This document shows positions 1 to 3,648 of a stretch of 51,914 nt of DNA, piece by piece. Under the pieces are notes generated by a model, which saw only the letters and a program-made list of their open reading frames with translations, did no database searches and was not told where the DNA came from. A program made the translations under genes and the position numbers. The number at the start of each line of letters is the position of its first letter. Within the stretch, counting starts at the first letter, position 1. Origin of the DNA: Actinomycetota bacterium (GTDB taxonomy: Bacteria; Actinomycetota; Actinomycetes; Nanopelagicales; Nanopelagicaceae); the NCBI GenBank assembly GCA_016870815.1, contig VGAI01000003.1, positions 1-51,914 of the forward strand, read 5' to 3'.

Positions 1-1667
1 GCAGCAACCATCGGCCAGACCATTGCATCGCGGTGAACACTGAAGTCGATGACGACTGGAGCATCATTGATCTCCATTGCTTTCTTGATTGTCGTATCGA
101 CATCATCTCTACTTTCACAGCGAAGTCCGATACATCCCATCGCATCAGCAAGTTTGACGAAATCTGGGATGCGCTTGGAGTGCAGATCTGTATTTGAGTA
201 ACGTGAAGAGTAGAAGAGCGTCTGCCATTGCCGGACCATGCCAAGGCTCTCGTTATTGATAACCGCGACCTTGATCGGGATCTTATTGATAGCGCAAGTG
301 ACAAGTTCTTGGTTAGTCATCTGGAAACAACCGTCGCCATCAATCGCCCAGACTGGCGTATCAGGTGCGCCAACTTTTGCACCCATCGCTGCTGGAACCG
401 CGTAACCCATCGTGCCAAGACCACCTGAGTTAAGCCAGGTCCGTGGTTTTTCATATTTGATGAACTGTGATGCCCACATCTGATGTTGACCAACGCCGGC
501 GCAATAGATCGAATCAGGACCTGAGATCGCACCAATTCGTTCGATTACATATTGCGGCGAAAGTCCTTCAGCGGGATGGTCATAACCGAGTGGATAGGTA
601 GCGCGAAGTCCACCCATCTGCTTCCACCACTGTGCAAGATCTGGCTTTGATTTAGCGAATTCTTTCTCAAGTGCTGGAACCAACGCCGTCATAGTTCGCT
701 TGAGATCACCGATGAGAGCAACATCTGCAAAACGATTCTTGCCGATCTCTGCCGGGTCGATATCTGCATGGATAACTTTGGCATTGGTGGCAAAAGTAGA
801 GAGTTTTCCAGTGACTCGATCATCAAATCGCGCACCGAGTGTGATCAAGAGATCGGCCTTTTGAAGCGCGGTGACTGCAGCAACAGTGCCATGCATTCCC
901 GGCATGCCAAGATGGAGCGGGTGACTATCTGGGAATGCGCCCCGGGCCATCAAAGTAGTGACAACAGGTGCGCCTACTAACTCTGCAAGACGGAAGAGTT
1001 CTTTGGCGGCATTTGCCTTGATCACGCCACCGCCGACATAGAAGACTGGCTTCTTTGATTCGGCGATAAGGCGAGCGGCATCATCGATCGCACTCGCTTC
1101 AGGATCGAGTTGTAAACGATATCCAGCAAGAACTCGTTGCTTCGGCCAAGTAGAAGTAGTCATCTTCTGAAGCGCATCTTTTGCGATATCGACAAGGACC
1201 GGACCTGGGCGACCGGTACTTGCAATATGAAATGCCTCAGAGATGGCAGCAGGGATCTGATCGGGATCTGTGATCAAGTAGTTGTGCTTAGTGATTGGCA
1301 TCGTGATGCCACGGATATCAGCCTCTTGGAATGCATCCGTTCCGATTGCAGGTCCCGGGACTTGACCGGTAATCGCAACAATAGGAACAGAATCCATCTG
1401 GGCATCGGCAAGTGGAGTGACAAGATTTGTTGCACCAGGTCCTGAGGTCGCTATGCAGACGCCGACTTTGCCAGTTGCTTGGGCATAACCAGTTGCCGCA
1501 TGACCTGCACCTTGTTCGTGACGAACCAGTATGTGGCGAATCTTTGAATCAAAGATCGGATCGTAAGCAGGAAGAATCGCACCTCCTGGAATACCGAACA
1601 TAACATCGACGCCGGCATTCTCCAAAGAGTTCACTAGTGATTGCGCTCCAGTTACTTGCTCGCTCAA
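1..1667 (-). CDS. ilvB: Acetolactate synthase large subunit, 3' end cut by the window
   Basis: ThDP- and FAD-dependent enzyme that makes acetolactate or acetohydroxybutyrate, the first common step of Val, Leu and Ile synthesis. About 555 residues are visible on the minus strand and the C-terminal tail lies outside the window. Visible marks are the ThDP-activating Glu in [14 protein letters not shown], the GPGATNL segment, a central FAD-type domain, and the ThDP/Mg motif [11 protein letters not shown] near the visible end. I place the start at the TTG at 1667 (reading MSEQVTGAQ), preceded by a GAGAGAG purine stretch; no ATG lies nearby upstream. The frame stays open further upstream, so a longer product is possible. 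An attenuator sits directly upstream. ilvN and ilvC would be expected downstream, outside the window. Confidence 0.93.
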
Positions 1668-1730: not shown

Positions 1731-1759
1731 GAAAAAACCCTCAGTTTCCACTGAGGGTT
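1731..1759 (-). terminator. ilvB attenuator: intrinsic terminator hairpin
   Basis: On the minus strand a perfect 7-bp stem CCCTCAG/CTGAGGG, extendable to 9 bp with two A-T pairs, has a 6-nt loop and runs into six T residues. It lies 19 nt after the stop of a Val/Ile-rich leader ORF and about 64 nt before the ilvB start, so it most likely acts as a conditional terminator of the ilvB transcript rather than as the end of ilvD. Confidence 0.85.
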
Positions 1760-1794
1760 GCGCGACCTTTGACTTGCGTCAGATCGCGCGCCCC
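1755..1794 (-). promoter_or_regulatory. ilvB antiterminator stem (alternative to the attenuator)
   Basis: In the minus-strand RNA, GCGCGAUC (1789-1782) can pair with GGUCGCGC (1767-1760) through 8 bp with one wobble. After a 2x2 mismatch, GGG (1794-1792 region) pairs with CCC (1757-1755), which is part of the terminator's 5' arm. The two folds therefore exclude each other. The 5' arm covers the last leader codons and runs up to the stop codon, so a ribosome reaching the stop would block it, while a ribosome stalled on the earlier Val/Ile codons would leave it free. Inferred from base pairing only. Confidence 0.65.
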
Positions 1795-1871
1795 GCAATC
1801 ACCACTGAAATAACCACGATCACGCCGGAGATACGGCGTGAGAGTGAGCGGGCAGTGAATGCGTTACGCAC
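1779..1871 (-). CDS. ilv leader peptide, 30 aa, rich in Val and Ile
   Basis: A short ORF starting GTG at 1871 after a GGGAG Shine-Dalgarno element (9-nt spacing) and ending TGA at 1779. The product begins MRNAFTARSLSRR and continues ISGVIVVISVVIAGRAI: five Val and five Ile within the last 17 residues. This is the signature of an attenuation leader that senses charged tRNA-Val and tRNA-Ile. It is followed at once by mutually exclusive antiterminator and terminator hairpins. Comparable leader-peptide attenuation is established for ilvBNC in Corynebacterium glutamicum. The frame is open further upstream to near the ilvD end, but the GTG with its ribosome site is the natural start. Confidence 0.78.
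   Translation of the reverse strand: MRNAFTARSLSRRISGVIVVISVVIAGRAI
1821..1840 (-). promoter_or_regulatory. Possible pause hairpin inside the ilv leader ORF
   Basis: A perfect 7-bp inverted repeat CACGCCG/CGGCGTG with a 6-nt loop lies within the leader coding sequence, just before the Val/Ile run. In classical attenuators an early hairpin pauses polymerase until the ribosome starts the leader; this one is in the right place. The role is inferred. Confidence 0.5.
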
Positions 1872-1965
1872 GGGCAGAGTCTCCCAATCGACCCCAAGGT
1901 CCGTCAACCCTTGAGATAGCCATCTCACATCCTGAGCGTGGCAAGACGCCAAGAATCGGCGATTA

Positions 1966-3648
1966 CTAGTCGCAGACCGCTCCCTTAGAGGCAGAGCCAA
2001 CCAACTTGGTGAACTTATGCAATACGCCTCGGGTATAGCGAGGTGGCAGAGGTGAGAATGATGCCTTTCGCTTCTCTACTTCGGATGCATCAACCAAGAG
2101 ATCAAGTTTTCGCGATGGGATATCTATCCGCACTCGATCGCCATCTTTGATCAGCGCAATCGGGCCACCATCGACTGCTTCAGGCGAGATATGTCCAACG
2201 CAGAGTCCTGTTGTTCCACCAGAGAACCGTCCATCGGTTAGGAGTAGGACTTTCTTACCAAGACCTGCTCCCTTGATCGCACCAGTGATCATCAACATCT
2301 CGCGCATTCCAGGTCCACCTTTCGGACCTTCATAACGAATGACAATCACATCGCCCTCTTTGATTGTTCCATTCTCAAGAGCTGCCATCGCGCTCTGTTC
2401 TCGGTCAAAGACTCGAGCAGGACCTTCAAAAACTTCTACATCTATACCAGCGTTCTTGACGACCGCACCTTCTGGTGCAAGCGAGCCACCAAGAATGGTG
2501 ATTCCGCCACCTTTGCCCATCGGATTCTTTGTCGCTCGAAGGATCTCTCCATCTGGATCTGGTGGTGCAATCGTGGCGAGGTTCTCAGCCATCGTCTTTC
2601 CAGTAACGGTGAGGCAATCACCATGTAAGAGTCCGGCATCAAGAAGAGCTTTTAAGACCACTGGAATCCCGCCAACTTTGTCGAGATCGGTCATGACAAA
2701 ACGTCCAAAAGGTTTGAGATCAGCAAGGAGCGGTGTCTTAGCGCTGATCCGCTGGAAATCATCGAGTGATAGATCGACATCTGCTTCATGCGCGATAGCC
2801 AAGAGATGGAGTACCGAGTTTGTCGATCCACCGAGTGCCATCACCGCCGTGATCGCATTCTCAAATGCTTTCTTCGTCATGATCTGGCGCGCAGTGATCC
2901 CGTTTCGGATCAATTCCACAACCGCTTCACCCGATTTGATTGCATAGTCATCGCGCCTTCTATCGATGGAAGGAGGAGATGCCGAACCTGGGAGTGAGAG
3001 TCCAATTGCTTCACCGACTGTTGCCATCGTGTTGGCGGTGTACATACCGCCGCATGCACCTTCACCTGGGCAAATTGCTCGCTCGATCTTGTCGACCTCA
3101 GCCTCTGATATCAAGCCTCTCGCGCAGGCACCAACCGCCTCGAATGCATCGATGATCGTTACATCTCGTCCATCGACATTTCCGGGCATGATCGAACCGG
3201 CATAGAGAAATACGCTTGCCACATCAAGGCGCGCCGCCGCCATCATCATTCCGGGAAGCGATTTATCGCATCCGGCAAAAGTGACCATTCCATCGAATCG
3301 CTCTGCCTGCATCACCGTCTCGACTGAATCAGCGATGATCTCTCTCGAGACGAGGGAGAAATGCATTCCTTCATGACCCATTGAGATGCCATCTGAGACC
3401 GAGATAGTGCCAAACATCATCGGAAAACCACCGGCGTTTGTCACACCGATTTTCGAGGCCTTCGCTAAACGATCAAGTGAGAGATTGCATGGGGTGATCT
3501 CATTCCATGACGAAGCAATACCAATCTGTGGCTTGACCCAATCTTCATCGGTCATTCCAACTGCGCGAAGCATTCCGCGCGCTGGAGCGCGCTCCATGCC
3601 ATCGGTCACCATATGAGACCGCGGCTTCATCGGATTCTTCGAACTCAT
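1966..3648 (-). CDS. ilvD: Dihydroxy-acid dehydratase
   Basis: Fe-S enzyme that dehydrates dihydroxyisovalerate and dihydroxymethylvalerate to the 2-keto acids of Val/Leu and Ile synthesis. The 560-aa product has the family length. Three conserved cysteines are visible: C54 (TPCN), C127 in GCDKSLPG and C199 in [12 protein letters not shown], the pattern of [2Fe-2S] family members. The C-terminal half has GRFSGGT and the PEA segment of the active-site domain. The ATG at 3648 lies 28 nt after the gatB stop and follows purine-rich ribosome-site candidates. It appears to be the last gene of gatC-gatA-gatB-ilvD. The ilvB leader follows, so two adjacent ilv genes probably have different control. 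Confidence 0.97.

Follow-up and report, generated by a model that had tools for sequence, protein, structure and literature searches.

Genes and control elements between ilvD and ilvB

The window, that is, the whole stretch of 51,914 nucleotides analysed here, corresponds to contig 3 in a draft genome of 1.26 Mb from the Nanopelagicaceae. On its minus strand, ilvD (3648-1966) is followed by a short leader and then by ilvB, which begins at about 1667 and runs off the window edge; an intrinsic terminator (T) is located between the leader and ilvB. The coordinates of these features, and of the promoter and RNA elements that accompany them, are compiled in Table 1. A second, distant IlvB-like protein (36% identity, N-terminal 100 residues) was observed in the same genome (G000 contig 41, 1472-1744).

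Table 1. Features of the ilvD-ilvB region, with positions given in the window
Feature	Positions	Strand	Basis and remarks
ilvB, acetohydroxyacid synthase large subunit	3..1667	-	ORF and IlvB relatives; probable TTG start at 1667; runs off window
Intrinsic terminator T	1732..1759	-	10-bp stem 1759-1750/1745-1736; T6 tract 1737-1732, its first two bases closing the stem
Full antiterminator, window genus	1750..1799	-	1799-1796/1753-1750 and 1794-1792/1757-1755 outside hairpin A; stall-position scan
Hairpin A, antiterminator core	1760..1789	-	Overlaps last leader codons and stop codon; covariation; ribosome masking
Leader peptide ORF	1779..1871	-	GTG 1871 to TGA 1779, 30 codons and stop; predicted leaderless
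Control codons V17 I18 V19 V20 I21 S22 V23 V24 I25	1797..1823	-	Stall-position scan; full antiterminator freed by stalls at 1823-1809
Hairpin CACGCCG/CGGCGTG ("pause hairpin")	1821..1840	-	Visible in L002, L003 and L004; not conserved
-10 element GAGACT	1878..1883	-	Ends 6 nt before leader GTG
-35 element TTGACG	1902..1907	-	TTGA also present here in 112 of 113 relatives; 17- or 18-nt spacer in 111
Inverted repeat TGAGAT-N4-ATCTCA, putative operator	1912..1927	.	Ends 4 nt before -35
ilvD, dihydroxyacid dehydratase (putative; name read from ORF)	1966..3648	-	ORF; directly upstream of leader

About 190 relatives were compared in total. The ilvB upstream regions of 116 family genomes were collected, and in 113 of these, representing 15 genera, the leader and terminator could be read automatically; all 113 possess the promoter-to-start spacing, the BCAA-rich leader end and the terminator, while the T hairpin itself was detected in 114 of the 116 loci. 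A covariance model built from 36 family sequences identified one copy in the genome of the window, before ilvB, with no match before the second IlvB-like gene; in 57 of 61 sampled family genomes it gave one match each, at ilvB in the loci that were read. Outside the family, 80 ilvB loci from 33 other actinomycete families were inspected. A BCAA-rich leader with a -10 spacing of 6 or 7 nt was found in 77 of them, covering 32 of the 33 families, though this spacing served as the search criterion there and the agreement is less independent than that within the family. Searches with the Rfam covariance models returned no family match (only tRNAs at gathering scores) and nothing relevant at relaxed thresholds, where a single chance match fell below its gathering score. 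In one family locus (L045, genome G056), the end of ilvD runs straight into the 3' arm of hairpin A and the terminator, without leader or promoter, an arrangement that reflects either a deletion or an assembly fault.

The leader peptide reads VRNAFTARSLSRRISGVIVVISVVIAGRAI* and contains five Val, five Ile and one Leu, so that the GTG-started, 30-residue leader claimed in the earlier note is present as described. At the composition of the window, the probability of encountering at least 10 Val/Ile in 29 codons by chance is P = 0.005, which makes this leader, taken alone, only moderately improbable as a chance ORF and leaves some room for the reading that it is such an ORF, or a small functional protein, with T acting as a plain ilvD-ilvB terminator. 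The relatives speak against this. Leader peptide length is highly variable within the family, and many leaders have just 12 codons, e.g. MTSSVVIRERAI*, yet the VVI core, the position of the stop codon and the geometry of hairpin A persist, and the conserved end takes the form ...VVIxxRA(I)*. Moreover, the promoter sits between ilvD and T. We therefore consider that reading to be so improbable as to be nearly negligible.

The codons of the VVI core vary synonymously (GTG, GTA, GTT, GTC; ATT, ATC) and hence it is the amino acids, not the bases, that look kept. Within the five-codon core, Leu occurs in 7 of 71 distinct family peptides versus 65 of 74 from other families of the class. The suggestion that Val and Ile are sensed rather than Leu thus gains support from the family's loss of Leu codons in comparison with these other families, and this specificity appears to be a family trait.

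The promoter of the window, TTGACG-18-GAGACT, conforms to a promoter-like pattern, TTGAC-17/18-nAnnnT, common to all 113 family leaders (one locus is incomplete at -35). The distance from the -10 element to the leader ATG or GTG is 6 nt in 96 of these relatives, 7 nt in 16 and 5 nt in one. With such a spacing, transcription would begin at the start codon itself, and translation of the leader probably proceeds from a leaderless mRNA of which GTG would be the first codon. A GGGAG (1885-1881) lies 9 nt before the GTG, and a variant of the attenuation model, compatible with the explanation that we prefer, would start the mRNA further upstream and use this GGGAG as a Shine-Dalgarno site. The relatives speak against it: the hexamers of the relatives at this place (GAAACT, GACAAT, AATAAT, GATACT) do not resemble a Shine-Dalgarno sequence but retain A2, T6 and the 17-18 nt distance to TTGAC. 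GGGAG probably belongs to the -10 region, and we hold the Shine-Dalgarno variant to be improbable.

Upstream of the promoter, the inverted repeat is kept with two mismatches or fewer in 93 of 112 family relatives, and in 89 the motif ends 4 nt from the -35 element. The palindrome in the window is the sole perfect copy in its genome, and it is rare upstream of ilvB in other actinomycete families. A wider regulon was considered and rejected: of the other copies with one mismatch, all but one lie within ORFs, the exception being located in an intergenic stretch of 97 nt (L293). NdgR was likewise dismissed as the binding protein, since the motif of S. coelicolor NdgR differs (PMC4340878). The palindrome looks like a putative operator of an ilvB-specific regulator.

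Hairpin A and its junction with the terminator

The terminator consists of AACCCTCAGT-GGAA-ACTGAGGGTT (1759-1736) and T6. The 141-nt region as a whole folds with z = -6.1, and none of 200 shuffles was equally stable. Throughout the family, the conserved partner of T is hairpin A, in which the final codons of the leader and, in most cases, its stop codon are included; the claim that the 5' side of the antiterminator overlaps the leader end was borne out in this form. Nine of its 14 pairs change on both sides, and 0 of 500 shuffles reached the observed values. Pairing was retained in 84% of cells, as compared with 20-46% when the partners were slid by 1-3 columns. The alignment of leaders across relatives, a check put forward in the earlier note, hence revealed covariation in hairpin A alongside the BCAA-rich end and terminator kept in every readable leader.

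Hairpin A abuts T. The gap between them is 0 nt in the window, and among the 113 family leaders it is 0 nt in 95, 1 nt in 15 and 3 nt in three; a gap of 0-1 nt was thus observed in 97% versus 36% with dinucleotide-preserving shuffles of the upstream sequence. Upstream sequence was limited to 50 nt in this shuffle comparison, which makes its gap values too low for long hairpins of the class. Two hairpins before the U tract were also seen at 76 loci outside the family; they adjoin without a gap in 60 of these and are 1 nt apart in 14.

The position of hairpin A relative to the reading frame was examined under the assumption of a 12-nt distance between the first base in the A-site codon and the leading edge of the ribosome (the textbook toeprint distance). 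By this geometry alone, a stop codon in the A site hides the whole 5' arm of hairpin A in 104 of 111 leaders. The arm is entirely free, again in 104 of 111, when that site holds the codon with which the last V/I run begins. Masking at the stop codon and release at the V/I codons is the geometry required of a switch that acts on hairpin A. In part of genus g16 (L085, L106, L110 and L113), the leader stops directly after VVVI, just before hairpin A; the hairpin is non-coding in these leaders, yet a ribosome at the stop codon masks it all the same.

An additional hairpin in the pause position had been described upstream. It does exist at 1840-1821, but within the window's genus just three genomes out of five have it, and most leaders of the relatives are too short for it. 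Because the 12-codon leaders have no room for such a hairpin, it was rejected as a general part of the system; it may simply have arisen as the leader grew longer.

Sharing of bases between antiterminator and terminator

In the window, the antiterminator extends beyond hairpin A through pairing of AUUG (1799-1796) with CAGU (1753-1750) and of GGG (1794-1792) with CCC (1757-1755). With the ribosome at codons 16-21, this structure captures 7 of the 10 bases of the T 5' arm, and a stall at V17-I21 frees an antiterminator whose stability exceeds that of hairpin A on its own by ~10 kcal/mol. Capture falls to four bases with the stall at S22 and three at V23, and it is 0 at V24 and I25, which are too near the antiterminator arm to free it. 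With the ribosome at the stop codon, only T was obtained in the stall-position scan. A further pairing of reversed sign, in which the Val-codon UCAGU pairs with the T 3' arm, appeared in the stalled fold of the window and was discarded as it is not conserved in the inspected leaders of relatives.

At equilibrium, T wins at most stall positions, and only with V17 in the A site was P(T) as low as 0.20. The equilibrium value was abandoned as a discriminator, since T also wins in most of the E. coli controls; for these as for the window, the order of folding during transcription must matter. The hairpins described earlier as mutually exclusive would accordingly be so as strands competing under kinetic control, and not at equilibrium for most stall positions.

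The extensive overlap between the two structures is a feature of certain genera. All five genomes of the window's genus capture 5-7 of 10 T 5'-arm bases, and overlap also occurs in genus g2 (5-6 of 9) and in one genome each of g11 and g13. Across the actinomycetes (family and class), mean capture was 1.8 bases, with shuffled-upstream expectations of 1.7 for the family and 4.9 for the class, and is thus about chance or below. In the seven E. coli attenuators used as a control, the stalled fold captures 5-9 bases (mean 7.4), compared with 4.4 after shuffling the upstream sequence. The large overlap claimed for the window is therefore real in its genus but is not the conserved part, which is the hairpin abutting T. 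From the loci compared, abutment, not overlap, is the candidate class-wide invariant.

Given this low capture, A and T can both form in most genera, and they coexist in the minimum-energy fold. Such coexistence is also what one would expect if hairpin A and T formed a composite structure that terminates better than T alone, with control residing elsewhere, in the operator at 1912-1927 or in ppGpp. Hairpin clusters have been reported to cause intrinsic termination (PMC8355165), an operator-like palindrome is conserved at the promoter, and codon changes in the S. coelicolor ilvB leader are reported to have had no effect (PMC1262725), a point contrary to attenuation. On the other hand, joint termination by A and T would have starvation lower ilvB expression, and it leaves unexplained why the conserved BCAA codons are placed such that hairpin A is masked by a ribosome at the stop but released by one at the first V/I codon. 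Experiments in related systems also disagree with it. In C. glutamicum, the antiterminator-stabilising A73G change in the homologous hairpin increased AHAS about threefold, from 13 to 40 units, and terminator mutations derepress ilvBNC strongly (PMC11857589); in M. tuberculosis, the codon test supports attenuation, as changing LVVI to AAAA in the ilvB1 leader removes induction (PMC13236596). A contrary point from C. glutamicum is that the antiterminator-weakening G37A slightly raised activity, from 13 to 20 units (PMC11857589). Taken together, we regard joint termination by A and T as improbable.

Proposed control of ilvB and relation to known systems

The explanation we prefer, and consider highly probable, is that a ribosome-mediated transcription attenuator controls ilvB. 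The proposal of a ribosome-coupled attenuator sensing Val and Ile is supported by the 113 family leaders, the covariation of hairpin A, the ribosome geometry and the loss of Leu codons relative to the class; its sign and its sensor draw support from the M. tuberculosis and C. glutamicum experiments because the architecture is the same. According to this model, (i) transcription would start at or next to the leader start codon and the ribosome would load on the 5' end without a Shine-Dalgarno site, (ii) when Val- or Ile-tRNA is short, the ribosome would stall at codons 17-21, (iii) hairpin A (1789-1760) would then fold once made, here with seven additional pairs into the T 5' arm, and (iv) with hairpin A against its base, T would be too late to close and RNA polymerase would read into ilvB. 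With ample Val and Ile, the ribosome would proceed to the stop codon and cover the whole 5' arm of hairpin A, T would form (1759-1736) and transcription would end near 1732.

How hairpin A would act without sharing bases is a matter on which we can offer a tentative suggestion, held with more doubt than confidence: base sharing with T may be dispensable in actinomycete ilvB attenuators, the flush hairpin A would stop T from closing, so that the conserved 0-1 nt spacing would be the switch, and the classical overlap of 7 bases would be a later addition, made in the window's genus, to this older design. For the steric step, we propose that, in or at the exit channel of RNA polymerase, a hairpin flush with the T 5' base prevents this base from zipping. 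In the C. glutamicum study, a GCC trinucleotide shared by both hairpins is invoked (PMC11857589). There is a gap here in the textbook mechanism, as the hairpins are compatible as secondary structures class-wide, yet regulation has been reported in two genera.

Attenuation of actinobacterial ilvB is already known, from sequence (PMC1262725) and from work in Corynebacterium (PMC10272879, PMC11857589) and Mycobacterium (PMC13236596). What the present comparison would add is a lineage outside those papers, a sensor apparently confined to Val and Ile, and a genus-specific overlap. The reach of experimentally supported ilvB attenuation is thereby widened to include the Nanopelagicaceae and, judging by sequence, 32 of the 33 other actinomycete families sampled.

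Like the window, C. glutamicum ilvBNC and the Corynebacterium ilvB-II motif (PMC11857589, PMC10272879) have a BCAA-rich leader before ilvB and a hairpin over the leader end that adjoins an intrinsic terminator. The C. glutamicum start was mapped, one nt from the leader start (PMC11857589), whereas a leaderless start of this type is predicted here from promoter spacing (113 of 113). Its hairpins share a trinucleotide, in contrast to a 7-base overlap across internal loops in the window and 0-2 bases in most of the family, and its leader holds Leu, Val and Ile whereas the leaders of the family terminate in VVI and are nearly devoid of Leu. M. tuberculosis ilvB1 (PMC13236596) resembles the window in its BCAA leader ORF and in the terminator between leader and ilvB1, and the codons are needed for induction there; its control codons, LVVI, include Leu, and the likeness is drawn from the description, the antiterminator in that paper being a predicted fold only. 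The leaders of Seliverstov et al. 2005 (PMC1262725) are similar in being short ORFs with Ile, Val and Leu codons, with terminators before ilvB in Corynebacterium, Mycobacterium and Streptomyces; that study assigned no regulation mode, and Nanopelagicales lay outside its coverage. The E. coli attenuators of trp, his, leu, thr, ilvGMEDA, ilvBN and pheA also share with the window a leader peptide, a terminator and a competing hairpin, and differ from the actinomycetes in how many bases of the T 5' arm their antiterminators capture.
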